From Auricularia sp. M13 (Eukaryota > Basidiomycota > Agaricomycetes > Auriculariales > Auriculariaceae): 64,000 nt of DNA. Of the stretch, positions 25,731 through 54,230 are shown piece by piece (positions within the stretch are counted from its first letter, which is position 1; each line of letters opens with the position of its first letter). Location: the NCBI GenBank assembly GCA_037042915.1, contig CM073199.1, forward strand, positions 372,001-436,000. Direction: 5' to 3'. The translations under genes and the position numbers were made by a program. Below the pieces are notes generated by a model. The model saw only the letters and a list, made by a program, of their open reading frames with translations. It did no database searches and was not told the origin of the DNA.

Positions 25731-25812
25731 CACCAGAGGCACCTTACCTATATAAGGCGGTAGATACATCCTCACTCATCAAAAGTTGCATCTAAGAGAT
25801 GGCCCCTCCAGA

Positions 25813-25990
25813 TTCTAGCAATCCCAGAAATCAGACAGCCACACACCTGCCGACAAGTCCAAAACAATCAAGTTTCCAGAAAGGCCGGTCCCACATCGTG
25901 CAGCACCAAGTCCTCCGTCTTCCTTGTTCACCGGTTTCCAGAAATCACTTCTATCCTGTCCTCAAACTAGCAAGTGCTTTCCAGAAATCA
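25813..25990. promoter_or_regulatory. TTTCYRGAAA box island 1 (left end of the KDZ element)
   Basis: Exact TTTCCAGAAA at 25,873, 25,935 and 25,978, with a partial CCCAGAAATC near 25,824. Two of the three are followed by TCAC. The island begins about 80 bases inside the left end and lies upstream of the small gene at 26,154. Confidence 0.65.
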
Positions 25991-26153
25991 CAGCCTACCG
26001 GTTCTGTTCTTAAATAGCGAAGTCCCTCCGTCTTGTTGGGAGTTCGTCCCCCCAAGCAAGTCCCCCGCGCTTCGTCTGACTCGTCCGCCATCCGCCCGCG
26101 CATCCTCCCGCGCATCAGCACCTCTTCTCCACAACCAAACGTGTGCCAGTGCC

Positions 26154-26477
26154 ATGGTCTTAACCCGCGCCCGACTTCGTCGTCGGATGAACCGTCCTCG
26201 CACACGCCAGCTCCGCGAAGAGCTGAACCGACTCGGCATCCTCGGCGACCCGCCCAACCAGTGGAACCGCTTTCTGCAGTCCTGGCTCGCGCACCATCGT
26301 CGACGGGAGCACAGTGCGTCAATGCAGAATCAACCTTCGAGCTAACATTGGTCGTTAGAGACAGCGCGCGACGTTTTCGTGGCCGCGAGCACGGACTATC
26401 GTGCCCTCTGCAGGTGGAGGTCTCCCGGTCACCTTGAGACCTATGTGACAGCGCTGTATAGCTCCCTTCCGCTGTAG
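26154..26477 (+). CDS. Small basic cargo protein, 92 aa
   Basis: Exon 1 (26,154-26,313) starts MVLTRARLRRRMNRPRTRQL and continues REELNRLGILGDPPNQWNRF. The intron 26,314-26,358 has GTGCGT and GTTAG ends. Exon 2 (26,359-26,477) gives KTARDVFVAASTDYRALCRW and ends ETYVTALYSSLPL. The N-terminal 25 residues are strongly Arg-rich without acids, which would suit a nucleic-acid-binding or mitochondrial-targeting segment. It is not recognised. It follows island 1 directly. Other small cargo genes at 27,534 and 53,363 have the same setting, downstream of a box island. Confidence 0.5.
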
Positions 26478-26950
26478 CGCCCGTATGCCCGTGTATGCCC
26501 TGTTATTGCGAATTATGCCATGAGCGGATGTTGCGGAGAAAAGCCATGTGCACGCCTCAAGTCCGGCGAGTCAAATTAAAATCAAACATCTCAATTTTTG
26601 CGAGCTACATCACTTATACTGTACTTACCAGCAGGCACTCCCTCAAGCAGAATTAAGACGTTCATGTTATGGCGCAATGTAAGCGGGCAAAATAAATAAA
26701 ACTTCGATTGGAGCTACACCAGACCGTATAGAAAGCAATATTACAAACAGGACTGTACGTTTTCCCGGCCGACGTCATATGGACTATGACCGCACTGTGG
26801 TCCGCACCCTGTGAGCATGAGATCACAGAGCCGCACCACGTGGCGGTCACGGCCCACCCGACATGGGCAGGGATCCCGTTAGTCTGCATCGTAGCTGCCC
26901 GGGGTATTTATGCTCATCCCCGCGCTCGTGATTACGCCATACTGTCTCGC
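26478..26950. other. No gene seen
   Basis: AT-richer spacer inside the KDZ element with only short unrelated frames. Confidence 0.4.
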
Positions 26951-27430
26951 ATTTCCAGAAACGCGCAGCATAGTCGGTGTCTTTCCAGATCAAACATGAT
27001 CCAAGCACCACACCTTTCCCGGATTTCCAGAATGCAAGAGCCGTTGGGACTGATTTCCCAAAGCAATGTTTTGGGAAAGCCACAGAAATCGCAGCACATT
27101 CTAGCAAGCTCTTGAGCGGCATCATCAATCACAACTGGTCTTTCCGGAAAGCACAAGCCATTGTCACGCTTACCAGAATTTGTGATAGATGTGGCTCGAA
27201 CCATTTCCGGATTCTCAGCGAGATGCATCGCGCTTGCTGGAAAGGGCTCTCCGTTGCCAGTCTTCCCCCAACTCCGCCACACTCATATGCTGCGTTTCCG
27301 GGAAACGCAGACCGATGCCACGCTCTCCTCCATTGAATATGCGGGTAACAACGATTCCGCTTGCTGGAAAGCGCTATCCGCTGCCAGTCTTCCAGTAATA
27401 ATGCTGCACTCGTATGCCACCTTTCCGGCA
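26950..27430. promoter_or_regulatory. TTTCYRGAAA box island 2
   Basis: TTTCCAGAAA at 26,952, TTTCCGGAAA at 27,142, and near-matches at 27,024 (TTTCCAGAAT), 27,204, 27,294 (TTTCCGGGAAA), 27,234 and 27,361 (GCTGGAAAG) and about 27,422. It lies upstream of the cargo gene at 27,534. Confidence 0.6.
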
Positions 27431-27450
27431 AACGTGTATCGATGCCATGC
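27231..27450. repeat. Diverged 127-bp tandem repeat
   Basis: CGCTTGCTGGAAAG followed by CTCTCCGTTGCCAGTCTTCC starts at 27,231 and recurs as CGCTTGCTGGAAAGCGC at 27,358. Each copy also contains ACTC(A/G)TATGC and (A/C)GATGCCA(C/T)GC. The two copies share the box motif, so local duplication helped build island 2. Confidence 0.7.
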
Positions 27451-27533
27451 TGCCTAATACTTAGTACTTATGCAAAGAGATCCCGTCTTCCGACCGCTCT
27501 TCTGTCCCGCCCCTGCCCCCACGCGTTGAGCCC

Positions 27534-28030
27534 ATGTCTTCCAATCCCGCCTACACCTCACCGACGATGCGGTTCACGCCCTCCGTGTTCGTCATGATGC
27601 GGCACTTCTGGGTTCGCCTCCATCCCATAAAACGAGGAGGTGCGTCCCAATCAAATCAGCGTTTCGCACTCGCTGTTCACGCAAGTCTCTAGAAGACCGC
27701 GCTGCGTATCTGCTCGGTGTGCAGAACGCCTGCAATGCCTTTTTTCAGGTTCCCATCCACGAAAAGGAGATGAGGCTGAAGGCGCTTCGCGACGTTTACT
27801 TGGCCGTCATCGTCGACGCCGACAGCGAACGCGTTGTTCCCGGCCGCGCTCGTACGTGGCCACGCGGTCTCCCTTTCCCGCCGGCCTATCTCGACTGCAC
27901 CATGACCTGCCCGGACCGACACGCCAGCCTCCGCCGTCTGTATCGCTATATGTGGCTGCTGGTGTATCCACCCATTGCAGGTCAGCTCCTTCGCGGTCCG
28001 TCGCATCCCTTGCTGATTAGCGAGCCGTAG
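27534..28030 (+). CDS. Small cargo protein, 147 aa (unknown)
   Basis: Exon 1 (27,534-27,639) encodes MSSNPAYTSPTMRFTPSVFV and MMRHFWVRLHPIKRG. The intron 27,640-27,692 starts GTGCGTCC and ends CTCTAG. Exon 2 (27,693-28,030) continues EDRAAYLLGVQNACNAFFQV, then EKEMRLKALRDVYLAVIVDA, and ends SHPLLISEP. The spliced frame is open. There are aromatic and Arg residues but no transmembrane span or known motif. It is preceded by box island 2. A second small intron near 27,950-27,980 is possible. Confidence 0.5.
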
Positions 28031-28204
28031 GGGAGTCGCCTAGTACACATCGCCGGCGCTCAAAGCTCACATACTTCGCTATTGTTGATCGGTTGGACAG
28101 CCCGACGTGCATCGCTCTCCGGCAGAGTCTTGTGCTCATGTATGATTTGTTGGGTATATGGAATTGAAGTCGACCTGTGCACGCCGTGAGTGTTTGATGT
28201 TCCA

Positions 28205-28695
28205 CGATTTCTGGAAATCGGGGTCGCAAGCCAGAGCGGAGAATGAGTGAAATGCTGCGCTTGCCAGAAAAGCTGCTGACGATCTATTATGCATCGTGGA
28301 AACCACTCTGGAAACCTATATCAGCCATCCGATGTTGCTGGAAATCCGTGGCACAACCTGCGGACGCACGCGATTCAAATCTGGCAACAACTCTACGACC
28401 GAGCGACGTTGCTGGAAACCACGAGCATTCTTCAGTCAAAGCGCGACATCGCAACTGGAAACCCATCATTGGATTGCCGTTGCTAGAAACGGCGTCTGTC
28501 TGGTAGGACAATCTCTAGCCGTCTTGCTGGAAACGTGCCGCGACTCGTAGAAACGGCGTCCGTCTGGCAGGACAATCTCTAGCCGCCTTGCTGGAAACGT
28601 GCCGCGACACGCCGTGTCTCCGAGTGACTGCCACTGGCCGTTCTAGAAAGCGACAGGCGCTTGCAAAGCTTTCCCGCCTTTCCAGTTTGGGGAAA
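28205..28695. promoter_or_regulatory. TTTCYRGAAA box island 3
   Basis: TTTCTGGAAA at 28,208. At least seven (T)GCTGGAAA or CTGGAAAC half-boxes lie between 28,290 and 28,600, with TTCTAGAAAG at about 28,641 and TTTCCAGTTT at about 28,680. The island lies between cargo gene 27,534 and the 3' end of the transposase gene. Confidence 0.6.
28484..28612. repeat. Tandem 64-bp repeat, two copies
   Basis: TAGAAACGGCGTCTGTCTGG at 28,484 recurs at 28,548 as TAGAAACGGCGTCCGTCTGG. Both copies continue through GACAATCTCTAGCCG and CTTGCTGGAAACGTGCCGCG with a few substitutions. Confidence 0.85.
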
Positions 28696-28781
28696 TAGGA
28701 AATGTCTATTTGCGCGCGTGAGTAATGTACACGTTTGAGGTATCCTACTGTTGAGCGTCCATCTCCATCCCGCTGCCTGTG

Positions 28782-31700
28782 TCATCTCAGCACGGCGCGC
28801 GACCGTCGCGCGAGCGGGCGTAAAGAGCGCATATGGCTCGCCATCCCCTCTCGCATAGCCCTCATATCCGTCTGCTGCAGCGCACTTGGGCTATCCGAAG
28901 TCAAAAGGCTCACAAAATCAGCCGCCACAAAAGGTCCGCAGTCATACCAATTAGTCTGCCGTGCAGGACGCTATGCAATGTCAGCATGGTCTTCCCATGG
29001 CATCTTGTACGAACCTGCTCTCCAATCCACTTCCACTGGCGACATCCTAGGTCCTTGCTATAGAACTCCTCGCAGAGTTTGAGGAGGGCGTACATGCGGT
29101 CCTTGACCGCCAAGTCGTATCTGTTTCGTGCCGCCAGGCTGTCGTAAAACCTGAGTTCCTGCGCTCGCCAGCGAATCTCGACAAGCGTCCAATGCTCGGG
29201 TTGCTCGATGTGGACAACTACCAGCCACTTCCTCGCCGCGGCCGGAGGCGGTAACTAATTGAACGAGAAACGGATTGAGAAACGTCATATGTCGATATCG
29301 ATAAGCGATATACTCACAGCTCTCAGCTTCGACCAAATATACTCTCGGCCTGCGCGAATTTTCGGCTCGTCCGTGTTGTCCACCGCCGCCATGTAGTCGC
29401 GAACATCAACAAGGAGGGTCGAGGGGCAATGGCCAATGGAATCGTCACCAACGGCGGCCAGCTGAGATTCGGCATAAACGGCAAGACCGGAGCCGCTGAG
29501 CCATTCCGTCCTCGACGCCATGCGTTCGATGTCTTCGCCGTCGCATGTGAATTGTCCGAACATCCTGCCCGGCTCGCGCACGGCGGTAGTGTGCTCGTCG
29601 GGCTCGGAATCGCTGGATATAACGATGACGTCGTCATCCACCGCGCGCCCGGACTTGGCGTGAGGCTGCTTTGTTGCCTGCGATGAAGACGCGGGCGACT
29701 TGCCGGAAGGGCGAGCAGCGACCTCTGGAGAAGAAACCGCCTCTCTCCCTTCGTCGAAGCCGCCGCGGTTTGACGCCTCGTCATCTGCGTCATCCGCATC
29801 TCCTGCCTCAGGCAGATCGATCGTCGCCATGTCCAGTAATAGCGCGTCCTGCTCGTCCTCGCCCGCGTCCGTCACGTCGTCCCCCGACATGTAGAAAGAG
29901 CCTTCTGAATCTGACTCTTCCGCAAGCGTGTCCGATTCCTCTGCTGAGACGCCGCGGAGGGGAGAATCTGCGCGCGACAATACCTGTGAAAACGGCGCGA
30001 TGCTCGTTCCGCCCACGGGCAACCCCTCGAGCGCGAAGTCCACACCGATGTCGGTTTTGGCGAGCGCGGTATTCCACGCGTCCGCAAAATACGTCAGACG
30101 GTGGAGCAACACGTCTGCCTCGCCCTGGAGAAGGTCATCGTCTGTCGGCATAGCCAATGAGCACCACGTATCGCCTGCTCTGCGTGAAAGACCTACCGCC
30201 CAGAGAAGCGCGAAATTTGCGCAGAACGCGAATTTCTTCCATCCACCACGTCCGTAACGTTCTCGCCTCGCAAAGGACCCTTTCGCGCTCTTCGCGGCAC
30301 CGCGAAACCTCCAGCATAAATCGAATGCCGTCGCGCACCTTCTCATCGACCTGCCAGCGCGGTAATTCGCCTTCGTCTTGAGGTCCGAGTCCCGGGTCTT
30401 CCTGCCAAATGTCGTCGTCGACGTCAAGACGAAATAGCTTCGTGGCGTCGAGCTTCCGCGGGAGGGGCAGTCTGCGGCTCGGTGCAAGCTTGTCGCGGAC
30501 CAACACCGCCATGTGGTTGACCTGCGCGTTGTATTTCTTGACGAGTGCAGAAATCTTGTTCTGGCGCGAATGCACCGCGTCGCGAGTGTGCTGGTGGTCC
30601 TTGTTCTCTACAGATCAATTAGAAAACCCCAAGCGCCTTTGTAATAGTAATAGTTGACTCACGCATTATCTGGCGGCGATAGTTGCGTTCCAGCTTCTCG
30701 CGCTCGAATTTATGGGCCTGGACTGCCATGCGGATATTTACGCGCAGCGCGCGAGCGTTTACACGCGCGCGAATGTATGCGTCACCACGCAGCTCCTCGA
30801 ACTTGCGTAGTGACCCCGTTCCCAGCTGCGCTTGCGCGAGAGATATTCGCGCACGTGTGGCCTTGATGTCGCGCTTCGTCTGGTCGATGCGCGTCGTAAT
30901 GAGCTGCACCTCCCGTGCCGCCAGACGGTGCGCAGTAGACTTGAGCTTTGCGCGGTCTGCAGCGAGCTCTTTCTGCAGGTCGTCGACGAGCTCAAGCTCC
31001 AGCAAGATCTTGTCGATACTCTTGTCACCAGCGTTCTGGGACTGGCCTGACGCCCACGGTGTTAGCACTACCGTACCATGACATCCAAGAGTTACAGACT
31101 CACCCGGCCCTGGCATCACCTGCGCTGTAACCTGCTCGCGCCAGAGTGAGCGGAGTGTTTCTTCCGCGACGCCACAGAGCTTCAGCTGGCGTTCGGCCTC
31201 CCGCATCTTCTGCGCGACGTCGGTCCACCGCTTGGACAACCAGCGCCCCATTTTGAATAAATTCTGCTGGTCCAAGAACTCGATCTGCCTGTCGAGCACG
31301 AACATGCGACGGAAAAACTAAGCCGCGTTAGCTTGTGCAGTCGCCTCGTATCCATCCCTCCTCACTTACACCAGACACGCGCAGGCAGGCAATGAGATGC
31401 CTGATCGAGCTCCAGAAGCGCTCACAGCCTTCTCCATCCGTTAATCCGAATCCATCGCGCTTGCGCGGATGGAAGACCAACTGGCATGCCCATTGGTGGC
31501 CGTATGCGTGGAAGACCGACACGCCGAACACCATGCGGTCCGCGTACTCTTCAAGGAAGTCTTGCTGTAAAGCGATGAGTTGGGATGGGGCGAGATTCAA
31601 GAGCAACGCACCTTCTCGATACTGCGAGACAGTTGACACGCGATGTCATATAACACGCCGATGTTCCAGTCGTCGGGCAGGGCTTCGAAGAGCTTCTTCA

Positions 31701-33641
31701 GGAGAATGAGCGCGTAGTGCTGCCGCTCGCCCGGGGTCGTCAAATTCGCCAAGTATAGGACGCGATCGTGGCGGCAAAGAAGGGCCATGAGTCCCGTATC
31801 GGCGTAATAATTCTTCGATGCCTTCGTGACCTTTTCCTGCGCCGCGAGGAAAGACTGTTCACACTCGTCGAGAACTTCGTCGCCCAGAGAGGACGACGTT
31901 CCCTTCGTGCGGCGCTTCGCGGGCTTCTTGCGTTTGCGTTCTACCTCGCGTTCCATCTCGTCCACTTCCTCCTGGGAAACGAACCGCCCGCCCGCAAAGT
32001 GAAGGTCGGGGTCGGTGCCGTTGGACTTCCGCCGCTTCTGCGCGAAGTTTGCGTCGAGACATACGATCGCATGGGCACTGAAAATACCGTCGTGGTGCAC
32101 AGGTCAGTATTCAACCTGCACACACACCGAGTAATCAACATACTCAGTGTGCTCGAGGTCTGGGCGCTCGCCTCCGAAGCAGAGTGGACAACGAGCGCGG
32201 AGATACTCGCTCGGACGCTCGCGCGATTGAGCGGCCTGTACGTTTAAGTTATGCATCAGCATGAGCACGCGATGGAATATCCGACAGACTCACCGAGCCT
32301 GTCGCAGGCAGCCCCTGCTCAATCCTCTCCGCGCGCACGCCCCGCTGTGTGGACGCGGCGGCGCCCCCATCCGCGGAAGAGGCGCCCGCGCGGGTACGCT
32401 TGGAGGCCGGCGGCGTGGACTCGTCGCCAGCTTGCTCCATGCTTTCCGCACGCACGCCGCGCTGTGTGGACGCGGCGGCGTCCCCATCCGCGGAAGACGC
32501 GCCCGCGCGGGTACGCTTGGAGACCGGCGGCGTGGACTCGTCGCCGGCCGTGTCGCGGCGACGCTTCCTCTGCATGGTTGCGCGAATCGCTACGTGACGC
32601 CGCTTCAGCGCGTCAAGTTTCTCTTCCAGCCAGAAGACTCACCATCGAGAGATGCTCGGACGGCCGCGTCCTTCTGGTTGAGCAGGACTTGATACCAATG
32701 GACAGCGTTGCCCAGGCGCTTCCGGAATGCGCGCTTTTTCGACAGCGTCAGTCTGAAGCTGTATGTTCTGAGCAGTTCACGCACGGATTCTTCGATTACA
32801 AAACCCCTGCGCGCCCAAAAAGTCTCCAGAGTTGTAGCCCACGCAGTAGTGTTCGGTGCGACATGGAGCGAATGCAGGGTGATAAACTCGAGAAGTCGAA
32901 AATTGAATGCCATTGACGGCCTCTTGGGAGCACAGGGAAAATATCCCCGTTGCACCAGTTGAAGCGCTGCCGGAGCGCAGCGGCACACAATGAAGGTCTG
33001 GCAGCTGGTAGCTGCGCAGGCTGTCAGTGTCTTTCCCGACAGCGCGACGCGCACTCACAATCCCAGTCTGCTAACGTCATAGTGACACGTCGACGCCCAC
33101 TGCAGGTGCAAACGCTGGGCGTCTCCTGCACGCCGCTCTGCCCGTGGAGGTACCGCAGCATGGGCCTAATTAGCGACGGTATGACGATGTCGCGCCATGT
33201 CGCGTGTTGAACCGCTCGCCGGGCACGATGGCGACTGGAAGCTGCTGTCCCCATCGTTACGCCTTCCGCCTCGGGGTCAAACGGTGGCGCCAGAAAGTCC
33301 ATCAAGTCGTCGTCCAGCTCGATGTCGCCCGGTGTCGTTCCAGGAGCGGCGAGAAACGTCGCCAGTGCACTTGCGCCAGGGATGGCCGACTGCGGCAGGT
33401 TTTCGCGCTGAGTAAACTGAACGCCGTATCCCGCGCTGAGCACTGCGGCCTCCCTCAAGGCCTTCGGCAGACGTTCTGTGCCTGGTTTGCGGCGAGTTTT
33501 CTGAACCGAGCCCACGGGAATGAAGTGGAAATCCTCCAGTGACGGGCCTGGTACAGGATCCCCGTTCGCCTGCGCGGTCACCGCTGCATGTGCAGCGAAG
33601 TTCCTCTTGTGCGTGCGGCGGCGGGATGGGCGATGCGACAT
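28782..33641 (-). CDS. KDZ transposase fused to a Ulp1/C48-type cysteine protease
   Basis: I could model twelve in-frame exons: 33641-33059, 33011-32643, 32589-32294, 32235-32144, 32077-31612, 31564-31370, 31317-31104, 31046-30663, 30607-30197, 30141-29318, 29254-29015, 28970-28782. They give about 1,420 aa. The N-terminal part is the Cys cluster that accompanies KDZ enzymes (PSVCTCSG, VCRCAPAALQLVQRGYFPCA). PSEYLRARCPLCFGG follows, then the RNase H-like core with CLDANFAQKR (D455), GVLYDIACQL (D591), VFHAYGHQWACQ and LTDGEGCERFW (E647/E650). After a long coiled coil and an acidic region with VIVISSDSEPDE come WLVVVHIEQPEHW (H1299), LRFYDSL (D1316) and RQTNWYDCGPFV (C1369). These are the catalytic His, Asp and Cys of the Ulp1 fold. 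All key residues are present, so it may be active. It probably cuts and joins the element; the protease target is unknown. Confidence 0.9.
32300..32560 (-). repeat. In-frame tandem repeat in the KDZ gene
   Basis: Two copies of a unit of about 120 bp (translated AGDESTPPVSKRTRAGASS and AGDESTPPASKRTRAGASS, each followed by ADG.AAASTQRGVRAE) lie in exon 3, between the Cys cluster and the catalytic core. The unit is basic/Ser-rich and looks like a flexible linker with a nuclear-localisation-like KRTR. Confidence 0.85.
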
Positions 33642-33767
33642 GACGGAGGAGAAAGCGTCCGGCGGAGTTTGATAACGCAACAACCTCGTTGTTCTTGCGT
33701 TGGAATAACGCCCGCAGGATCAATATACCTACTGTGGTAAGATATATACACCCAATAAATTATATAT

Positions 33768-37669: not shown

Positions 37670-38339
37670 ATGCAGCCGACCGCGACGCAGAACTCGTCAG
37701 TCCGCACGACGCGCAGTCGACTGCGGGCGGGAGAGCCGCTGGCGCAGCTGGACCAGTCGTCAAAGCCCATGGTGGTCTACAAGGACGCGAAACTGCTTGC
37801 CGGGCGACCGGCGTCTGAGCAGCAACCTGGGGAGGACCCCGCGGGAACCTCGACCGTGAGTGCTGGAAATCATAATGCACATGCACAAGTTGACTTGAGC
37901 TCGATCCAGTCAGACAGCATCAAGGAGGGCGGAGAGACAGAAGCGCGCAGTGAGGCAGCGCCCAAGAAGGTACGCAGCTAGTAAACGAGCGCGAGGAGCA
38001 GTCTTGACAATATTACCAGCCTGCGACGAAGACGAGAACACGGTCGGCTACACGAGAGCCTGCGGCAAGGAAGACGGTCAGTGGCTTGGCTAAAGGGCAA
38101 GCAGTTCCTTGCTGATGTATTGCTGATAGGGCGGCCAGCGGGGCAAGGGCAAGACGCCCACGGTGGCCAGTTCCGCAATGTCTGGTCCCGACGGCGCGGC
38201 GCCGGAGCCGCCCGAGCCGCCCCGAGCGCACGCGCCCAAGACCGACGAAGGCGCCGCCGCTCCGCCTGCGCCTCCGCCTGCGCCCCCGCTAGCGCACGCT
38301 CCGCCAGCCGCAGGCGGAGCGGCTGCTGCAGCACCGCCG

Positions 38340-40530: not shown

Positions 40531-40565
40531 TACGCCCTCCGGACCTGATACAGCAGGTTCCTCAA

Positions 40566-43748: not shown

Positions 43749-46700
43749 CTAGACCGGCGCGGGAGATCCCCGTGATTTCCCCTTTTGGATACTCCGTCCC
43801 GGACTTATCCCCTGAGGTATCGGCAGCTGATCGCGTCGCCGCAAGCGCGACGGCGACTGCTTCAGATCCGATGTACACAGGCGCCGAGAATCGCGAAGGA
43901 TGGAACGCAAGTGGTAAGTCAGCCACGGCTATCCGCAGCGGGGATTCATCGTCGCTGACGTCTTCCTCTATGTATTCGCTCTTGGCCCGCACTGTCCCTG
44001 GCTGATCTTCACTGTATAATCGGGATAACGCATCTGCCAAAACATTAGTCTTGCCCGGAATGTACATAATTTCATAGTCAAACTCGTTTAATACATCTAG
44101 CCATCTACTCTGCCTGGATGACAAGTTCTTTTGGGTCAGAAAGTACTCCAATGCTTTATGGTCAGTGCAAATCCGAAATTTTGCACCATGCAACATTCCC
44201 CGGAACCTTTTCAATGATTCAACTATGGCTAAGAGTTCAAGTTCATGAACTGGATAGTTCTGCTGTGCGGAGTTAAATTTACCACTCCAGAATGCACAGA
44301 CTCGAGCTTTAGCCAGATCATCGCCTTGTGATATATATCCGCTGCCACCCGTGAGGCTAGCATCGGTCACGAGGTTTATTTTTGGTGCGGACGGGCTGTA
44401 GTCCAACGCGACGCGATGAGAGTTGCGCCACGCAACTACGATCCGTTTGACTTCCTCAAACGCGCGCTGCTCGGTAGCTCCCCAGCGCCACGGCCTGTTA
44501 GACCCTGTGAGGGGGCTAAGGACGCCCATGGGGATCCTGATTCCGTGGCAATCCGGCGCTAGAAATCCAACCGCTCCTAAGAAGCTCTGAAGGAGCGCGC
44601 GGTTTGTGGGAGTCTTCCAATTGGCGACCGTGTCCACCTTGTGGGGGTCCATTCGGATCCCGTTTTCGTCAATAATATGCCCGAGAATCTTGAGTTCTCG
44701 AGCGAACAGTTGCATTTTGTCGACGCTAAGGTAGAACTGGTGCTTACGGAGCACTTTGAACACTGTCCGAATGTGTTCAATATGCTCGTCTAGGGTTTGA
44801 GAGTAGATGATTATATCATCCAGGTACACGTCCATCCATACCCCAATATATTCTGAGAAAATGTAGTTCATCAGCATTTGATAGGTCGCCGACCCATTGC
44901 AATCTCCGATTTGCATGACCAAACTTTCCATTGTTCCGTCTGGGGTGTTGAACAGGGTGCGCGGGACGTGCTCAGGAACGACGCGGATCTGTTCGTAAGC
45001 GTCCTTGCCGTCGATCAAGCTGCGCCACGGCCGTCTGACAACGTTCCTGAGGATCGTGTCTATATCGGGCAACGGAGTGGCGATCTTCTTGGTGTTATCA
45101 TTCTGTGCGCGCTTATCTATTACCGTACGCATTCGCAACACGCCGTCGCCTTTTGGAGGCTTAGGGATTATCAGCATCGGAGTGCAGCTGGTTCCCGAAG
45201 CTAGCCTCCACCTCCCGGTACTTAAATAAGCTTGTTTCTTTGCCTGCCACAGGCCCCGCATCGCTTCAGGACACCGAGAGGGTCTCCATGGATAGATTTT
45301 ATTTTCATCGATGAGGGGAATACTATGGTTGATGGCGCGAAGTGGCGGCAATTCGGCCAGCCAGGCGTCTTTGCACAAGTCTTGAGCCTCTTTTTTAAGT
45401 TTGTTACGGAGTTCCTCGAGCTTTTCTTCGTCGACCGCAGCTGAAGATGCTGCGATCTCAAATACTTCGGCTCCTTTGATTTCCTTCGGAATCGCGGATC
45501 CTACCACGACGCGAGTGGGATTCAACCCGACTAGAACTTCATGTTGCCACAAGAAGGGTGTACCAAGGATCAAATCGTAGTTGTCCAAGTTGACAACATC
45601 GAACCGTTTAGTGCAATCAATGCCTTGGTACTTAAAATTCGCATTCACATTCACATTGATCTTAGAACGCGACCCTTTCACGGCCAGTTGGAGTGGTATT
45701 GGCTTCTCCAACACTTCCAGAGGGAGTCTTAGCTGGTCTGCAAGTGTAGTGGACATAAAGTCGGCCAAAGAGCCAGAATCTATTAACACTCGCACGCTCT
45801 TGTCCTGTACAAATGCTTCTATTACAATCGGCCGAGGTACCATCCGTCCAGCTTTGCGCGTTCTCATCGCGTTCCGCTCAACGGGCTCCACGGGCGCAGC
45901 GCCTTTACTGCCTCGCGGAGCCGCTTTCCCCCTCCCCCGCCTCAGAAGCGTTCCCCGCTCCTTCGGCGATCCTGCGGTAATCGCGAGCAGCGCGATCCCA
46001 CTGGGGAAAGGTTCAGCGAGGTACTCGAATCGATTGGAAGCATGTGTACGTACCGGCTCCGTGAAAACTTGAGGTTCTGAGGTCTGCAAGATAAGATTGA
46101 CATCGACGCCGGCGGCCAACTGCTCAGGGGATATATGATATCTGAGGCCAGTTTCAACATCATGGAGGAATGTCTGGCCCCAGTTTCGCTGCACTAAGTA
46201 TCGAGGTCCTGTTCCTTGAGCATACGCCTCGTTCATGCTGGTTATCGCCCTGAATTCCCCGCCGACGAACGTCAGGGCAGGCTGAGATCCCCGATCCGGG
46301 TTTGGTTCAGAATCCTGGTAGCCTATATCTATTAGGCTCTGAATCGATGGTCCCCGTGATCGCTGGTTGCGTTGAGCATGCAGTTGCACGGCACGACTGA
46401 CTCGGAAATCTCCGGTCAGGAAATCGTCTCTGTACACCGCATACCCTCGCCGATTCCCCAGTCGTTCACGATGAACGCCCGTCGCCGCGCGTAGCTCAAC
46501 CGTGAACCGGCGCTCGACATCCATCTTCACTGTGCCGTCCAGGGCTCGCAAGTGCCCGAAATAGTTCTTGAACGCGCCCAGTAAGTAGTCGGCGACGACT
46601 TGATCCTTTGCGTAGGATAGTTCTGATACGTCTTCAGGGCTGTGAATGTGCAACTGCATGCCGTGCAGCTGCAGCGCATTCGGACCCGTGGCTTCGGTCT

Positions 46701-49700
46701 TCATGCGAGCAGAACTCGCGCTCAGTCCGGTAGGCCGTCGCGCTTGCTGGCGCTTTGGGCAATTTCGACTGAAGTGACCGCCTTCTTTGCACAGGAAACA
46801 TTTACCCTCGGCCTGCAACCGCTCCCGCTCGTCCTTGCTCAACTCGGTACGCGTAGAGGCGCCATTCGCCCGGGCTTGATCCTGACGATTGCCCGATCGT
46901 GCAGAGGTGCCTGCACGTGCTGCAAACCCGGATCGCGACGAGTATCCGCCGCGCCCTCGACCGCCCCGATTAGGAATCCCGCGTCCGGGTCGCGCGCTCG
47001 CGACTTGGATGGTTACCGCGTTACTGCGCGCCCAGTTGCGTGTCCGCGCCGGCGTTCGGCCTTTATCGAGGCTGGGGTGATCCTGACCGTGCGTCCTATC
47101 GCGCAAGGAGCTACCGCCTCCAGTGCTGACATTCCCTCGTCCAGTTAGCCTCTCGGACAGCTTCTGGTTACGGTCCTCGCCCTGTCGCGCCTGCTCGCCC
47201 TTCTCGAAAGCCTCAGCGGCCGATACGAGCTCTTCGTACGTATTCTCATCGACGTTAAACCCGTACTCAAACCATTTCGACCTGATATAGCGATGAACAC
47301 CTTCCCAAAGGACCTGGATGAGCTGGCGTTCCCCGACGTCCGGGAATCGTCGCGACAGGACCTTCAGGTTGCGCGCATATTCGCGGACGCCGCGCTCGCC
47401 CTGGCGCGAGCGCGCGAATTTCATTCGTAAGCGCAATTTAAAATCAGACGGGAAACAGTAATCAAATAACTCGTCGTAGAATCGTCGCATGGTCCAGCGC
47501 TCTTCGGACAACACGACGTTGTTCATAAACCACCTTGAGGCCTCGTCGGACAGAAAGCTCGACAGCATGGGGATTATCCACTTGGTGCGTATGCCGTTCA
47601 ACCGTTTCCACCAGTCGACCTCATAGCACCATTGATCGAAGTAGTCCAAGTCCGCGCGTCCGTCGTAGACGCGCGGTTGCTTGAGTTTCATTTGGGATGC
47701 GAGCTTGCGTCGCGCTCGGAGCTCATCGTCGCCCCCTTCGCTCTCGTCATCCGACTCGGACTCGCTCCCGTCGTAGGGTGGCCCTCCTCCCGGAGGCCCA
47801 CCTCCTCCTGGTCCTCTAGGGTCTCCCGGATCGCCGTCATCATCGCTGCCATGGCCTCCGTCACCGCCGCCCCCGCCCCCAGGCGGTCCTCCACTTCCTC
47901 CTCCGGGTGGTCCTCCTGGTCCACCGCGTCCGGCACCAGCAGGCGGCAGATCCTCGTCACCGCCAGGGTGATCATGCGGACCGCCCTGATCTGGCACGGG
48001 CGGCTTCCTTCCGCCCCCATCTCCACCATTTCCGCCTCGGCCGCCGCTCAGTTCGACCGGCAACACGGGTTCTGCAGAGGCGGGAGCGGTTGTTTCTTCG
48101 GCGGCGCGATCTTCGGTGGCGGTCGACGAAGCGCGCCGCCGTTTGTAGGTCTTCTTCCTTTTCTTACGGTCGCCACCGCGCGGCTGCGAATAGAACGTAT
48201 TGCCTTCGCTATCACTGGATTCCATTCCGTAAATGAACGGTTTAGTCCCCCGTCCAGCACCACCTCCTCCCGCAGCTGGCAGTCCCCCGGCTTCTGAATA
48301 ATAGCCGCCCGGAGGAGCAGCCCGAGCACGGGGGGTAGCACTCGCGGTTTTAAGCACTGACTCGGGATGACGCAGGGTTGACCTCTCGCGCGGCGCGGGG
48401 GTCGCTCCATCGTCCGAACGCCCTGACATGGGTCGCCCGGACTTCGCGTCCCGCGGCGTCGCGTCACCCTTGGCTGGATCCCCCATGCCGATCCGCGCGC
48501 GCCTGGCGTCGAACGGCCCCGACGCGCTGTCTCCATGGAGAGGTCGTGTTTCGTGGTGCTGATCACGGTTCCCTTTGCCGCCGTTATCAGGTGAGAATTC
48601 GTCGTCTCTCATCGAGAACCGAACGGATTTGGGAGTTGAAATCGCAATTGGGCGTTCCCGAGGGTCGACTCCTTTGCCTTTCCCGACGACAGGAGGGCTC
48701 AGCAGCATCGATGCACTGCTGACCCCCGATACCACCTCGCTATAAGTCCGCTTACCTGTTCCCCATACAGGGAATCTGAACTGATCTGGCCAGATATTGT
48801 CTGCAAAACCACTTAGGATGTTAGCATCAGGTACCACATTATTTGTTCTACAGTCGATCAGATACTGAAGCCATCTCCGAACGAGGTTTACATCGTTATC
48901 GGGGAATACGCCGCACATGTGACCCAGTGCGACTTCAGTCCCGTCAGAGTCGTAAGTCTCCATTACATCATCACAGAACATAGTTAACATGAGTTCTAGT
49001 TCCGCGTTGTTGGACCGCGGAGACAGCGGCCTCGCGGGTGACAATGGCCTGGATGGTCCCGGCATCGGCGGAGCCTCCAGAATCCAGCCATCGTTCCGCG
49101 CAAGTGAGTCAGTTGTCACCTGCCTCCTGCCCATCTCAACGCTTTCGACGCTGTCACTGATGCTGCGCAGAGATGGCAGGGATCCGGTGCTCATCGCGCG
49201 CGACGCCGGCCGCGAAGCAACCGTTCCCTCGTCCTGCGCGGGCTGATCCTCGATCGTCGCGGCTTGCTGCACCGAGGGAATCGTTCCCCACGACTCGAAC
49301 TTGATGGCATTGTCCTTGCTGGAGAAGTGGCTGAACCATGCTGGGAAGTAAGTGGGTCCCGTGAACATAGTGGGTAATATGACATTGATCCGTCGTTTCA
49401 GTGATTTCTTTGGATCGACTACTTGAAACTCGTCGATCGAGATGCGCGCGCCGTCCTCGACAAGCTGCCATTCGGGTTCAGCGCTGGGAGGCCGCTCAGG
49501 CCCGAACGGCACCGGCGCGGCGAACTTCACCAGCGGCCCCGCCGCGGGCTCGCTGCTCGGTTCGCTTCGTATTCCACTTTCGCCACCTCGTTCTGGGAAG
49601 TTAAGCGCAGCGGCATCGAACGACAGGTCCGCGAGAGAGGTAAGCGCGGACTCGTCTATTCGGTAATCCTCATAGTATCGCGCGGCCTCGTCAACGCGAC

Positions 49701-50079
49701 CGAGTTTCCACTCGTGCGCCGTTGCAAAGTCAATGCGCGGGCCCAGGCGAGGACTCCTGGGTCTCTCGTCTGTTGGAGGCAGCTGGAATGGCTCGTCCAG
49801 CGTCCCTTCCGCCTCGAAGACTTCCTCGGCTGGTTTTGCCGAGGCGTCTGGCCCTTCCCATGACTCCCTCCTCTCAGGGGGAGCCTCGTGATCGAGCAGC
49901 TTGAAGATCCCGCGCCCTGGCTTACTGGGCGACAGGTGCTCGATTGCAGCTTTCAGTTTATTGACGCGCTGACGTCGCGTTGCTTGGGAAGCGCCTGCCT
50001 GGTGCGACCAGGTTTCTTGTACTACATCGTCATCGCTCACGTGGGGCTGACGAAGTTGAGCTCGAGTTCTCGCGACCAT
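43702..50079 (-). CDS. Gag-protease-reverse transcriptase-RNase H polyprotein of the Ty3 element
   Basis: One open frame of 2,125 codons. The first ~790 residues are a long disordered extension with Gly/Pro runs. Then comes a Gag capsid-like region (YDGRADLDYFDQWCYEVDWW, FYDELFDYCFPSDFKLRLRM). A CCHC zinc knuckle CFLCKEGGHFSRNC lies near residue 1,093. The aspartic protease site LIDSGSLADF is near 1,430. Reverse transcriptase has VWMDVYLDDIIIYSQ (near 1,750). RNase H has VTDASLTGGSGY, VHELELLAIVESLKRF and TDHKALEYF. It ends GWRPSAGRPRVGLA. The order and residues fit an active Ty3 polyprotein. The Gag N-terminal extension is unusually long. Confidence 0.93.
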   Translation of the reverse strand: MVARTRAQLRQPHVSDDDVVQETWSHQAGASQATRRQRVNKLKAAIEHLSPSKPGRGIFKLLDHEAPPERRESWEGPDASAKPAEEVFEAEGTLDEPFQLPPTDERPRSPRLGPRIDFATAHEWKLGRVDEAARYYEDYRIDESALTSLADLSFDAAALNFPERGGESGIRSEPSSEPAAGPLVKFAAPVPFGPERPPSAEPEWQLVEDGARISIDEFQVVDPKKSLKRRINVILPTMFTGPTYFPAWFSHFSSKDNAIKFESWGTIPSVQQAATIEDQPAQDEGTVASRPASRAMSTGSLPSLRSISDSVESVEMGRRQVTTDSLARNDGWILEAPPMPGPSRPLSPARPLSPRSNNAELELMLTMFCDDVMETYDSDGTEVALGHMCGVFPDNDVNLVRRWLQYLIDCRTNNVVPDANILSGFADNIWPDQFRFPVWGTGKRTYSEVVSGVSSASMLLSPPVVGKGKGVDPRERPIAISTPKSVRFSMRDDEFSPDNGGKGNRDQHHETRPLHGDSASGPFDARRARIGMGDPAKGDATPRDAKSGRPMSGRSDDGATPAPRERSTLRHPESVLKTASATPRARAAPPGGYYSEAGGLPAAGGGGAGRGTKPFIYGMESSDSEGNTFYSQPRGGDRKKRKKTYKRRRASSTATEDRAAEETTAPASAEPVLPVELSGGRGGNGGDGGGRKPPVPDQGGPHDHPGGDEDLPPAGAGRGGPGGPPGGGSGGPPGGGGGGDGGHGSDDDGDPGDPRGPGGGGPPGGGPPYDGSESESDDESEGGDDELRARRKLASQMKLKQPRVYDGRADLDYFDQWCYEVDWWKRLNGIRTKWIIPMLSSFLSDEASRWFMNNVVLSEERWTMRRFYDELFDYCFPSDFKLRLRMKFARSRQGERGVREYARNLKVLSRRFPDVGERQLIQVLWEGVHRYIRSKWFEYGFNVDENTYEELVSAAEAFEKGEQARQGEDRNQKLSERLTGRGNVSTGGGSSLRDRTHGQDHPSLDKGRTPARTRNWARSNAVTIQVASARPGRGIPNRGGRGRGGYSSRSGFAARAGTSARSGNRQDQARANGASTRTELSKDERERLQAEGKCFLCKEGGHFSRNCPKRQQARRPTGLSASSARMKTEATGPNALQLHGMQLHIHSPEDVSELSYAKDQVVADYLLGAFKNYFGHLRALDGTVKMDVERRFTVELRAATGVHRERLGNRRGYAVYRDDFLTGDFRVSRAVQLHAQRNQRSRGPSIQSLIDIGYQDSEPNPDRGSQPALTFVGGEFRAITSMNEAYAQGTGPRYLVQRNWGQTFLHDVETGLRYHISPEQLAAGVDVNLILQTSEPQVFTEPVRTHASNRFEYLAEPFPSGIALLAITAGSPKERGTLLRRGRGKAAPRGSKGAAPVEPVERNAMRTRKAGRMVPRPIVIEAFVQDKSVRVLIDSGSLADFMSTTLADQLRLPLEVLEKPIPLQLAVKGSRSKINVNVNANFKYQGIDCTKRFDVVNLDNYDLILGTPFLWQHEVLVGLNPTRVVVGSAIPKEIKGAEVFEIAASSAAVDEEKLEELRNKLKKEAQDLCKDAWLAELPPLRAINHSIPLIDENKIYPWRPSRCPEAMRGLWQAKKQAYLSTGRWRLASGTSCTPMLIIPKPPKGDGVLRMRTVIDKRAQNDNTKKIATPLPDIDTILRNVVRRPWRSLIDGKDAYEQIRVVPEHVPRTLFNTPDGTMESLVMQIGDCNGSATYQMLMNYIFSEYIGVWMDVYLDDIIIYSQTLDEHIEHIRTVFKVLRKHQFYLSVDKMQLFARELKILGHIIDENGIRMDPHKVDTVANWKTPTNRALLQSFLGAVGFLAPDCHGIRIPMGVLSPLTGSNRPWRWGATEQRAFEEVKRIVVAWRNSHRVALDYSPSAPKINLVTDASLTGGSGYISQGDDLAKARVCAFWSGKFNSAQQNYPVHELELLAIVESLKRFRGMLHGAKFRICTDHKALEYFLTQKNLSSRQSRWLDVLNEFDYEIMYIPGKTNVLADALSRLYSEDQPGTVRAKSEYIEEDVSDDESPLRIAVADLPLAFHPSRFSAPVYIGSEAVAVALAATRSAADTSGDKSGTEYPKGEITGISRAGLGGWRPSAGRPRVGLA

Positions 50080-50255
50080 GGTTTGTTAATTTCAACGTTG
50101 ACTTGATTCTTTGAATAGAATAAATTTGAAGCTTTGTTATATCGTTATTGTTAGTTCGATTTGAGAGTTTGATGCGCTGAGAAGGTGATCAGTCTTGCTC
50201 AGCTTAAATAAGAGACCTCATGGTGTCAAACACGAAAAGAGATTCATTCAAAAAT

Positions 50256-50879
50256 TGTAAAGCTAGCCCGCCTCGGCGGGGTAGAAGTGTAACTAATAGA
50301 TCACCGATCCTTACTTCGACTTACCTGAGGTAGGGAAACTTTACTAGAATCCTCTTGAGGGCTTTGTGTCACTCTGAGTTGAATGAGACAAGTGTCCGTG
50401 TTAAGAGAACTGAGGTCTATGTACAGAAAAAGCTCTCCTTTTTATACTCTACGGAAAACTGCCTTACTAAGCTACTTTTCACGGCGGACCGTTGTGTCCG
50501 CATCTACAGTGGGTTTATAAGCCCTAACTCCGTCATGAGACTCCATAACCCGTCCTAATCCCGGCCCTTCGTGGGCGGGGATAGGCTACTGCACCTCCAG
50601 GCCGAATCCCGTGACGGGAATCGGTAGTCATGTGGCCGCTATCCCGGCGGCCCGTCGGTCCTGGCTCATCCTAGGGCCGACGGGTTTGAGTCTGCATTAC
50701 TGATGCGCTCAACACGTGACTATTCTCAATGAAATTGTTTGCTCGTAATGGACATGATCGTAATAGTTCGTAAGTACATGACGCCGATACATTGTACACA
50801 AAGATTGCCTTGCTTGGTTCTTCTGCAATGAAAGGGATTTTTATCAGCGTCTGGCAGGCGGTGGTAGGTGACTGTTACA
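50256..50879 (-). repeat. Right LTR (5' LTR of the minus-strand element)
   Basis: 624 bp, promoter-side LTR for the minus-strand genes; one base differs from the left LTR. Confidence 0.95.
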
Positions 50880-53144
50880 GTCAGCGTCATCGAGAGGGGC
50901 GTCGGGGTGAGCTTCAAGGCTGTCGGCGATCAGCTGTCGGCGATCGGCAAGTACGTACACGGCTTGAGATGCGACCGGGATGCTGACGACCGTGCCAGAG
51001 TCGCCGAGATGGCAAAGGTCGAGGCCAAGGACTTCTCGAAAAGCAAACAGGACTGGTACAACACGCACGCGCATCACGACCAGGTCAAGGAGAGAATTGT
51101 GCCGTGGATCATCGAGACCCAGAGTGAGTGACGCAAAATTCAGACTGCTGCGCAGATTGATTGAGATGTCTGGTAGACCGCGCGTCGAATCGCAAGCGCA
51201 CGAAGGTGAAGTGGCAGAATCACTTCATCGAGCTGGTATGGGCGGGCAACCGCATCATCGGCTGGCCCGACGGCGTTCCGATCCCGAAGCCCGGCAAGAC
51301 GATCTACAACCGCATTGAGAACATGCGCAAGCTGCTCAACGCGATTTTCGAGACTGGCCGTGGCGAGCTCGAGGAGGGCAAGGCCTTGGCTGTTGTTCCG
51401 ATAAGCGAAGGTTCGTCCCGACTCCCGCAATCTCAGACGGCCGTGACTAAGCTGTTATGTAGAAGAGTTGGCCTACCGGGACGACCGCACGAAGCAGAAG
51501 AACTGGTACGATGTGCCCATCTACATCAGCGAGAGCGGCAAGTCGTTGGCCACCGTCGGCGATGGCGAGCGCGAGCAGGCAGCACGCAAGAAGGGCGGCG
51601 CAACCGTCGAAGGCGCGAGCGGGAACGGACAGGCCGAGGTGGCCGACAAGAAGCGCAGCGCCGACAGCGTCGCCAGTGACGCTGAGGCTCCGCCGCGCAA
51701 GCGCAGCAAGGGAGCGGCGCGCAAGACGAAGCCCACGCCGAAACCGCGCGCGCCCCATGTCGCCCGAGTCCAAGAAACGCGCCAGGAGAACGCGGAAACT
51801 CATGACGACGACGTCTCTCCCGCCCTTGAACGTCACAAAGAAGACGGGCCGCAAGTGGGTCGCTGACGACGATGACGACGACGACGCGACCGACGGCGAC
51901 GGTAAATCGACCAATGGCAAGGACAAGGGCGTCGCAGCGTCTCGCGGCAAAGCGACTGGCGTTCAGGCGGTCGACGACGACGACGACGACGAGGAGGAGG
52001 AGGTCATCGTCGTCGACGCGTCTGGCGCCAATGGGAAGCGACGTGCTGTCGCGCGGTCCGGCGACAGCAAACGTCGTGCGTTCGGACGGCGCATCGTAGA
52101 GAGCTCGGCGTCCGGCGAAGAGGAGGATGACGAGGTCGGCTCCCAGCACAGCGACGACGACGACGAGCCATTCAACTTGCGAAGGCGTCTGATTCGCCAG
52201 GGCAAGCAACCCGTGACGCAGCTGCCCGTGGCCAGCGGCAGCCAGCACCAGGTTGGCGGCGGTGAGCAGAAGTTCTATGCTTTGTGTTCTCATGCTGAAG
52301 TCACACTACAGGCCCGAACGTCGATTTGCTGTCGTCAACGAGTGCCTCCACACCCGCCGGTTTCTCGGCGCTCGACACGCAGATGGATGCCGCGCAGGAA
52401 ATCAACCTGAACGACATCGACTTGAATATGCTCTTCGCCGATGCTGGCGCGATGGACTTCGACAACACCGCGATCAACCATTTCGTCTTCGGCGGCGATG
52501 GCGATGCTGGCGCCGACGTCAACGCTGGAGGTGCGACGCTGCCATCGGACAGCGCCGGACAGTGGTCTGCCCCTGGGACGTCATCGCAGACTCCCTCGGC
52601 GCATGCTGTCCCTCCCTCGTCCAACGACGGAGGCAGCGGTCTTGTTCCGCAAATGCCGTCGTATCAGCAGCCCATGCAGATGTCGATGGCTATGCCGCAG
52701 AACATGATGCAGCCGGCGGGCATGCAGTCGATGGGCATGGGTGGCGCGATGGACAACTCGGGCGGGATGAACTTCGGGGGGATGGGCGGGATGCCCGGCA
52801 TGTCCGGTGGGATGCTGCACCCGGGGATGATGCACCCGGCGATGATGCACGCGGGGATGATGCACCCGATGATGCACGCGGGGATGGGCGGGATGGGGAT
52901 GCAGGCAATGAACGGGATGGGTGGCATGGGCGGCATGGGGATGCAGGCGATGAATGGGATGAGCGGCATGGGTATGGGACTGCAGGGCGGGGCGGGGATG
53001 GGCGTCGTGCACGGCGCGATGATGCCAGTGATGCCGGGCAACTTCGGGATGCAGAACATGCCTGCGCAGTACGCGCAGCAGGGGCAGGCACAGCCGCAGG
53101 GCCAAGGCGCACACCCGCAGTCGAACAATTCGGTGGTGCAGTAG
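50880..53144 (+). pseudogene. Large Pro-rich cargo gene, 3' part
   Basis: It resumes with the GTCAG duplication, then VSVIERGVGVSFKAVGDQLS, KSKQDWYNTHAHHDQVKERI and, after an intron (51,124 onward), KRTKVKWQNHFIELVWAGNR and GVPIPKPGKTIYNRIENMRK. A further intron precedes ELAYRDDRTKQKNWYDVPIY. A lysine/alanine-rich region then changes frame at a GCGCGCGCCCC run (about 51,747-51,756). The downstream frame has strings of Asp/Glu (DDDDDDEEEEVIVVDASG), a basic patch, an intron with donor GTGAGCAG, FSALDTQMDAAQEINLNDID, and a Met/Gly-rich repeat tail (GMGGMPGMSGG, HPGMMHPAMMH) ending NNSVVQ. It looks like a nuclear protein with acidic and low-complexity tails. Enzyme motifs are absent. The frame change is a second defect besides the Ty3 insertion. 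Confidence 0.65.
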
Positions 53145-53362
53145 ATACTTGTGTCGATTTGTGGAATTGCAGCTCTGAGACCATTCTGAGACCATTTGCG
53201 CGACCGAAATACAAACCTTGGCATTGGCAAGCAGGCAAACCAACTACGCGTCAAACGTGCCCTAAGGGAGTCAGAAACACGAGCAGTGAGCTCGATTCGA
53301 CGGCGAGTGAACTAGATCAGATTGAACGACGCGAGTAGCGACAGGCAACAGGTCATACATGC

Positions 53363-53842
53363 TCATGCGCCACACGTGCACTGCCCTTTCTGGAACCTCT
53401 TGCGCGTCTCCTGAGCGTCCGGATGTGAGAGCATGATAGCCAGCTCCCGCTCAGCCCGGCGGTACCGGCGGACAGCGGGATCCTCACGGAGCGCGTGGCT
53501 GGTGACCTCGCGCTCAAGTCGCGTGATGGCGCGGTCGACCTGCTTCGGCGAGAGCTGGCGACGCAGCGCGTGGTAGTCGTCGCGAAGTCGCGTCATAAGT
53601 TCGGGTTCCGACTCTGCGCATAAGTTAGCCAATGCAGCCACGGTATGCGGGATGAGGAACGCACCGCCGGGACGATCAGGGTGCCAACGGTTGCGCTCGA
53701 CGCTGGCAGCAAGGAACCGATTGTAAGACGACATGCGGCGACCGCACAGTGCGCGGCGCAGGATATGGTAAGGGCGCGAGAATAGGTGAAAGCGCGCGCG
53801 GGCGAAAGTGCGACGGATGGCGGTGAGAATGGTGTGGGTCAT
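53363..53842 (-). CDS. Basic cargo protein near the right end, 159 aa
   Basis: A single open frame starts MTHTILTAIRRTFARARFHL, followed by FSRPYHILRRALCGRRMSSY and NRFLAASVERNRWHPDRPGG. It continues with LRDDYHALRRQLSPKQVDRA and VRRYRRAERELAIMLSHPDA and ends RFQKGQCTCGA. It is rich in Arg and aromatic residues at the N-terminus and helical afterwards, with CTC near the end. No family is recognised. Its upstream side faces box island 5, as the other small cargo genes face islands 1 and 2. Confidence 0.55.
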   Translation of the reverse strand: MTHTILTAIRRTFARARFHLFSRPYHILRRALCGRRMSSYNRFLAASVERNRWHPDRPGGAFLIPHTVAALANLCAESEPELMTRLRDDYHALRRQLSPKQVDRAITRLEREVTSHALREDPAVRRYRRAERELAIMLSHPDAQETRKRFQKGQCTCGA

Positions 53843-53937
53843 GCGGTCGGAGACAAGAGTGCAGGATGGAGATTGAAATCACGAGCAGGTAGATGGGGGG
53901 CATCAGAGTGCGTCCCCCGCCACTGGGGGTATAGGGA

Positions 53938-54155
53938 AATTGTGGAAAACTGGAAATGCGGGAAAGACTACCGGGCAAAGAAGTGACATCGGGAAAGGTG
54001 AATTATCCTCGAAGGCTTACTGGAAAGATTCTGGAAAGATAAGAAACGAGTAGGCGGCACCCAGAGACTGCATGTTTGGCTGGGCAATCCCACACTTTCT
54101 GGAAACCGTGGTCGTAAAATAATAGTAGATAACTAGGGAACACTGGAATGCACGA
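53938..54155. promoter_or_regulatory. TTTCYRGAAA box island 5 (right end of the KDZ element)
   Basis: TTTCTGGAAA at 54,106, ACTGGAAAG and TTCTGGAAAG near 54,020-54,035, and ACTGGAAATG near 53,949. It ends about 75 bases before the right terminus, mirroring island 1 at the left end. Half-boxes are in the opposite orientation to most of island 1. Confidence 0.65.
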
Positions 54156-54230
54156 TCCAAGCCTCTAGGTGGATCACAGACATCACAGAGAGGTATCTAC
54201 TATGTTTATTATATATGACAGCCTGAGGTG

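Follow-up and report, generated by a model that had tools for sequence, protein, structure and literature searches.

The analysis presented here concerns a 64,000-nucleotide stretch of the Auricularia sp. M13 genome (contig CM073199.1, positions 372,001 to 436,000), hereafter the window, in which positions 25,731 to 54,230 are occupied by what is very probably a large, multi-gene cut-and-paste transposon of the KDZ type, similar to Kyakuja, that carries its own accessory genes and may use motifs in its arms for end recognition. It was inserted as a single 17.5-kb unit into an intron of a C2H2 zinc-finger gene, and at a later time a Ty3/gypsy long terminal repeat (LTR) retrotransposon landed inside it and broke one of its genes (G6). 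The features that define the block, including the target-site duplication (TSD) and the terminal inverted repeats (TIRs), are as follows.

25,731-54,230, no strand: whole KDZ element (probably Kyakuja-type) including the nested Ty3, as defined by its ends, a second copy and the joined-flank alignment
25,724-25,730, plus strand: left TSD, AGTATAT
54,231-54,237, plus strand: right TSD, AGTATAT
25,731-25,740, plus strand: left TIR, CACCAGAGGC
54,221-54,230, minus strand: right TIR, CACCTCAGGC (minus-strand reading)
25,698-54,265, plus strand: intron of the host C2H2 gene holding the element, 61 nt after removal of the element and one TSD
641-2,461, minus strand: uninterrupted C2H2 paralogue, used as empty-site yardstick
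39,907-50,879, minus strand: nested Ty3/gypsy LTR retrotransposon (LTRs at 39,907-40,530 and 50,256-50,879; TSD GTCAG)

The element measures 28.5 kb with the nested Ty3 and, since the latter accounts for 10,973 bp, 17,522 bp before the Ty3 landed. The retrotransposon has 624-bp LTRs that are 99.84% identical, and presents gag, protease, reverse transcriptase, RNase H and integrase domains. The KDZ element is flanked by a perfect 7-bp TSD (AGTATAT), and its ends form a 10-bp imperfect inverted repeat (CACC..GGTG) with no long TIR; each of the terminal 10-mers occurs once in the window. Removal of the block together with one AGTATAT yields a 61-nt GT..AG intron (33 + 28 nt; donor at 25,698, acceptor end at 54,265), and the joined flanks, with a further 56-nt intron downstream, present an open C2H2 zinc-finger frame. 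An alignment of 930 columns connects these joined flanks with the paralogue; identity is 73%, and the 36 gap positions include no gap larger than 12. The alignment of the unedited window splits around the insertion (paralogue 1,268-1,550 with 25,393-25,677, and 692-1,176 with 54,279-54,759). The AGTATAT flanks, inverted ends, 61-nt intron and open frame that an initial annotation had described from the sequence alone are thus borne out by the sequence and the joined-flank alignment, as are the intact intron that it had placed in the paralogue, which the alignment spans, and its estimate of about 17.5 kb before the Ty3 insertion.

A second full copy and a family of related elements

The genome (52.1 Mb in 14 contigs) was searched with a KDZ exon, yielding 53 matches; this and all other lists of genome matches are lower bounds. 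A second full copy of the element, C9a, was located at C9:2,799,680-2,819,593. Spanning 19,914 bp, it shares the 10-bp ends of the window element and is flanked by its own perfect 7-bp TSD (AAACGCG). The two copies are about 25% diverged at the DNA level, with piecewise similarity of 72-80% running from the left end (25,731) through the right end, and their genes are collinear. Because C9a has the same ends, the same gene order and a TSD of its own, the whole block can be said to have moved as one unit. The initial annotation had proposed as much and had suggested an alignment of full copies from the same genome; C9a does begin and end at the same bases, and the similarity extends across the accessory genes. 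The terminal 120 and 156 bp returned no further genome match beyond the window and C9a at the sensitivity used, so the window subfamily has two recognisable copies.

Related elements were identified with patterns for the left and right ends, for which reversed control patterns gave 5 matches versus 29 in one search and 0 versus 18 in the other. Exact ends were found 18 times on the left and 18 times on the right, with 14 pairing up and four of each remaining unpaired. Twelve further end pairs, predicted from the end patterns alone and picked by position before their flanks were inspected, had perfect TSDs in every case (8 bp in 10, 7 bp in 2). Five of these, measuring 14.8-22.3 kb, enclose a KDZ match; the other seven measure 2.40-2.44 kb, and no KDZ match is listed within them. 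Direct reading added three elements: C4a (22,531 bp, 8-bp TSD), C7b (24,917 bp, 7-bp TSD) and C6a (20,842 bp, no TSD). The TSDs found in two of these three are weaker evidence than those of the 12 end pairs, because their ends were chosen, out of numerous loose matches, when the flanks could already be seen. TSDs of 7-8 bp are present in 16 of the 17 elements for which both ends were examined. Where the initial annotation had given flanking repeats of 7-8 bp, the TSD of the window element is 7 bp; either length occurs in the sister elements.

The seven short non-autonomous derivatives sit on C1, C4, C5, C9 and C10, all with perfect 8-bp TSDs. The one that was read (L073) keeps the ends and motif arrays in both arms, has an internal CTTCTGGACA repeat and contains no KDZ match.

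Transposase and accessory genes

Seven conserved genes, rather than the eight or so initially annotated, were found in the element.

26,154-26,477, plus strand: G1, small orphan protein gene, modelled at 92 amino acids with one 45-nt intron
27,554-28,161, plus strand: G2, orphan protein gene, ends approximate
28,830-33,647, minus strand: G3, KDZ transposase gene, modelled with 10 exons and at least 1,337 amino acids
34,663-35,281, plus strand: G4, orphan protein gene, oriented divergently to G3
35,385-36,471, minus strand: G5, orphan protein gene
37,625-53,141, plus strand: G6, fast-evolving accessory gene, broken by the Ty3 at 39,907-50,879
53,369-53,776, minus strand: G7, small orphan protein gene

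The product of G3 presents CxC1, complete KDZ and C-terminal Ulp1/Peptidase_C48 domains, all above Pfam cut-offs. The KDZ domain (PF18758) supports the transposase assignment of the initial annotation with an E-value of 4e-64 and 216.7 bits against a cut-off of 26.6, covering profile positions 3-217 of 217, and CxC1 scores 40.1 bits against a cut-off of 26.9. The modelled exons contain no in-frame stops and the KDZ domain is full length; one intron call in the model, of 354 nt, is poor. For G1, G2 and G4-G7, no Pfam matches above cut-off were obtained. The G5 exon and one part of G6 had no homologues at E ≤ 0.001 in a large protein database, a search weakened by length limits and introns, and the positive control, a KDZ exon run against the same database, matched 235 proteins, with the top named ones from Auricularia and Exidia, in keeping with a host in Auriculariales. 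The ratio of nonsynonymous to synonymous substitution rates (dN/dS) relative to the C9 copy is 0.05 for G1 (on only 58 aligned codons), 0.37 for G2, 0.10 for G3, 0.14 for G4, 0.17 for G5, 0.29 for G6 and 0.24 for G7; these values are rough, since dS is high, but all remain well below 1, as for genes under purifying selection. The central exon of G5 is 84% identical to the C9 copy at the amino acid level. A second, diverged copy of G2 lies near the right end of the C9 element (C9:2,818,580-2,818,951), and each of the C9 matches to G2 has one internal stop. Relative to a further element, C11a, dN/dS is 0.48 for G2, 0.11 for G4, 0.24 for G5 and 0.25 for G6, with dS saturated for G3, G1 too short for comparison and G7 not found in C11a.

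Among the four genes with most matches, G6 is under the lowest constraint. Its N-terminal part contains tandem repeats (38,330-38,877), and two of its regions, the first exon and an acidic tail rich in M and G that follows 51,692, were assigned by inference. Tandem repeats 5' of the conserved G6 exon are present in the window, C9a, C11a and C6a, weak in C7b and absent in C4a. Iyer et al. (2014) are reported to have described a divergent HMG domain in KDZ elements. A resemblance of G6 to such a domain was noted by eye only, and is not claimed here, as Pfam and PDB sequence searches gave no HMG matches; a single-sequence structure prediction for the G5 exon was discarded (mean predicted local distance difference test score of 49.9).

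The association of the accessory genes with KDZ was assessed by locating their matches within 15 kb of 26 KDZ loci, a set that omits more distant KDZ matches. Among the matches listed, those within this distance amount to 5/5 for G2, 12/12 for G4, 11/11 for G5, 11/11 for G6 and 3/4 for G7, the fourth G7 match being the window's own copy, which lies 21.8 kb from KDZ because the Ty3 displaced it. These figures cover G2 and G4-G7. No more than 1.5% of the genome lies within the KDZ loci extended by 15 kb on either side, and the control family, TET/JBP, had none of its 19 matches within that distance. With no TET/JBP match among the scanned open reading frames (ORFs) and gene models of the element either, this family was rejected as a partner gene. 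Five TET/JBP matches have nearly equal scores, which suggests that another repeated, TET-bearing element is present in the genome.

Host-type domains were sought with Pfam at E ≤ 0.01 in other elements. No convincing metabolic, resistance or effector domain was identified in 162 of the 173 ORFs of at least 120 amino acids in C4a, C6a and C7b (105 ORFs from C4a and C6a, with 55/65 covered in C6a, and 57/58 from C7b), where the scan returned families of the KDZ and CxC types together with a scatter of isolated, weak matches. The scanned ORFs and gene models of the window element likewise presented no convincing host-type domain. Given the dN/dS values of 0.05-0.37 between copies and the location of their matches near KDZ, the extra genes look like equipment that the element itself has long kept, rather than captured host cargo.

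Motif arrays in the terminal arms

The arms of the window element are rich in a short motif, CTGGAAA, distributed as follows.

25,873-28,685: left-arm array with 16 CTGGAAA copies on both strands, putative recognition sites
53,880-54,230: right arm, four CTGGAAA copies in 350 bp

All 16 left-arm copies lie outside G1 and G2, and the two arms together hold 20 copies, whereas no 7-mer exceeded 7 copies when the arms were shuffled 40 times. The left arms of all nine elements examined are enriched in one short, often palindromic motif. The top 8-mer occurs 7-46 times per arm, as against 3-6 times in 23 control stretches, and never more than 6 times in 100 shuffles per arm. The motif context differs between elements: TTTCTGGAAA/TTTCCAGAAA in the window and C9a, GAATTGGAAC in C11a, ATGCGCGGCAC in C4a, GGCGCGACAGC in C7b, TGGCACGCCA in C6a, AGGCATC, with some AGGCATGCC, in C5 and the 2.4-kb derivative, and AGGTGCACCT in C1_1566. 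In a cross table of five motifs (those of the window and C9a, C11a, C4a, C7b and C6a, but not those of C5, C1_1566 or the derivative), each was nearly confined to its own element, the window and C9a sharing one. Arrays in both arms are found in the window, C1_1566, C5 and the derivative L073, and the latter has ends and motif in common with the 16-kb C5 element. The motif occurs on both strands in most arms and on one only in C9a and the derivative. Spacings between copies prefer multiples of 10.5 bp in six of nine arms (P < 0.05), in a post hoc test of helical phasing whose result is inflated by tandem duplication. No description of subterminal motif arrays in KDZ elements was found among the open-licence papers listed in the literature searches. 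Since the arrays differ between lineages and the one gene-less derivative read keeps them, they suggest a private recognition system, serving either mobilisation or anti-silencing.

Proposed mechanism and alternative explanations

In the mechanism proposed for the element, the KDZ transposase would cut at the CACC..GGTG ends and make staggered target cuts 7 bp apart, a distance of 7 or 8 bp for sister elements. Because inverted repeats of no more than about 10 bp offer little to recognise, the ends would be identified through the short motif specific to each lineage that is arrayed in the terminal arms, and this motif may be bound by the CxC1 region of the transposase or by an accessory protein, most likely G6 or G5. 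The accessory genes would serve the element and not the host. Several observations speak against parts of this account. C6a lacks a TSD (1 of 17), C11a has a right end and no identifiable left end, and the length of the TSD is not constant, being either 7 or 8 bp. For several genes, dS relative to the C9 copy is near saturation. The 8-mer excess of the window (7) and of C9a (8) is barely above that of the best control stretch (6), although the 7-mer count of the window is clearer. The right arms of C9a, C11a, C4a and C7b lack the top motif and that of C6a has one copy, and three of the nine arms (C9a, C7b, C6a) present no helical phasing. The noncoding position of the arrays was checked for the window only, and the C11a arm interval has an unverified outer end. 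Lastly, the Kyakuja assignment derives from termini and TSD, and the KDZ tree described below holds no named Kyakuja, Dileera or Zisupton references.

Alternative explanations address either the integrity of the unit or the nature of its genes. The block might be a composite in which a short KDZ element lies beside older, unrelated genes and the likeness of the ends is due to chance. The Ty3 really is nested within the block, but an independent full copy with identical 10-bp ends, the same gene order and its own TSD, together with the empty-site paralogue, leaves this explanation with negligible probability, and the second copy refutes it. It could also be argued that the element is a carrier of cargo in the Starship sense, its transposase moving host genes that were captured, are of use to the fungus and vary from copy to copy, given that several non-transposase genes travel together and that only a small number of KDZ loci hold matches to G2 and G7. 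All matches found for G2 and G4-G7, however, lie near KDZ genes, and the Pfam scans of C4a, C6a, C7b and the window element returned no convincing host-type domain, which makes such a cargo very improbable. The term "cargo" used in the initial annotation hence finds no support: the genome matches found for five accessory genes lie near KDZ, and the genes themselves have no recognisable host function and are conserved between copies.

A further alternative bears on the recognition step only and leaves the identity of the element as a KDZ transposon untouched. The arrays could be neutral minisatellites of the arms with no role in recognition, since slippage alone can produce such arrays and their phasing, TRF tandem arrays hold 9/9 of the C1_1566 motifs and 31/50 of those of C11a, and the motif is missing from several right arms. 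Against this, TRF arrays contain only 2/16 of the motif copies in the window, 0/9 in C9a and 0/14 in C4a, the motifs lie on both strands in most arms, and the 2.4-kb derivative that was read has arrays in both arms. The neutral explanation thus deserves appreciable, though minority, credence. With arrays acting in recognition, a more specific model can be put forward, which we regard as tentative and rather doubtful. Each Kyakuja lineage would possess its own array of a motif of about 10 bp, read by a co-evolving element protein (G6, G5 or the CxC1 region), so that mobilisation or the removal of silencing would be limited to its own copies and gene-less derivatives. Such a private, fast-diverging recognition would be the KDZ counterpart of VANDAL/VANC and would stand in for the TET/JBP of other Kyakuja.

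Comparison with known systems

Kyakuja elements have a 7-bp TSD, CA..TG termini and no TIR (Kojima 2025, PMC12730594), and the termini and TSD of the window element fit this description. The 7-bp TSD is found in the window (AGTATAT) and in C9 (AAACGCG), yet it is 8 bp long in 10 of the 12 end pairs and in C4a. Kyakuja-1_LB and Kyakuja-2_LB of Laccaria resemble the window element in their KDZ transposase, 7-bp TSD, CA..TG termini, lack of a long TIR and Agaricomycetes host, but carry a TET/JBP gene (PMC12730594), whereas the window element carries six other accessory genes, with no TET/JBP match among the scanned ORFs and models. Cryptococcus KDZ1, KDZ2 and KDZ3 share KDZ and CxC1 domains and TSDs of up to 8 bp, but they measure 9-11 kb and have TIRs of 139-241 bp (PMC12810828), as opposed to 15-25 kb and TIRs of about 10 bp in the family analysed here.

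In Ectocarpus, KDZ elements of giant size (up to 30.3 kb) have been reported to hold accessory genes and nested transposable elements, and one of 31.7 kb in Chlamydomonas is cited in the same source (PMC12477816). The likeness to these elements lies in giant size, accessory genes and nested insertions; they belong to other host groups, and lineage-specific arrays go unmentioned in the part of that report considered. Because elements of this kind are already published, the suggestion of the initial annotation that the block represents a new class of large cargo element, comparable to other giant fungal transposons, is not upheld. Starships are likewise large fungal elements with extra genes, but they have a tyrosine-recombinase captain and variable accessory genes (PMC12134995), neither of which is seen in the window element: variable host cargo was not found, and a Pfam scan of 20 ORFs, 7 gene models and 2 G1 exons, which do not comprise all ORFs of the element, identified no captain.

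Size, accessory genes and nesting are therefore already known for KDZ; what merits further attention is the lineage-specific arrays. In this respect the closest likeness is to Arabidopsis VANDAL/VANC, where family-specific arrays of short motifs in noncoding parts coexist with a rapidly evolving element protein, the variable part of which frequently includes tandem peptide repeats (PMC5735166, PMC10398659). VANDALs, however, are plant MuDR-type elements with unrelated proteins, and binding has been shown for them (PMC5735166, PMC10398659), whereas here it can only be proposed; the motif has a single orientation in VANDAL (PMC5735166) and mostly both in this KDZ family. KDZ elements are common in mushroom-forming fungi and little studied, and one genome paper calls them understudied (PMC8290104). 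The genome analysed here offers full copies with TSDs, an empty-site paralogue, conserved accessory genes, a gene-less derivative and lineage-specific arrays, making it possible to test what accounts for the great size of KDZ elements, and by what means the machinery of an element that has hardly any inverted repeats tells it apart from many relatives.

Gene-order inversions

The order of the accessory genes relative to the transposase varies between elements. G4-G5-G6 follow one order in the window, C9, C10 and C13, as do G4-G5 alone in C2. The whole G4-G5-G6 block is inverted in C11 (2,264-2,276 kb), at C1:4.98 Mb (4,974-4,986 kb) and at C4:0.37 Mb (369-379 kb), and G5-G6 are inverted, with G4 still beside the transposase, at C1:8.69 Mb (8,690-8,705 kb) and in C8 (1,729-1,740 kb). 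In a tree of 24 KDZ copies, all from this genome and leaving out the degenerate KDZ at C1:4.98 Mb, two groups that lie apart from each other hold the inverted order, and both have relatives without the inversion. C11 groups with the window and C9 with 94% support, the window-C9 pair inside this group having only 53%, and C4:0.37, C1:8.69 and C8 (100%) lie beside C10, C13 and C2. This distribution makes it likely that the gene order was flipped at least twice inside elements. Inverted repeats that might explain the inversions were absent in C9a, and only short ones were present in the left part of the window element; those of C11a belong to its motif array.

Other features of the window

A second LTR-like pair is present near the C2H2 paralogue (4,047-4,907 and 7,512-8,373; about 862 bp, 99.88% identical), and similar sequence also adjoins the C11a element and occurs within C7b. 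Outside the element, the window further contains a palindrome of about 680 bp that is 93% self-complementary (11,318-11,998) and, on the plus strand, a fungalysin/thermolysin propeptide motif (PF07504; 14,132-14,923).

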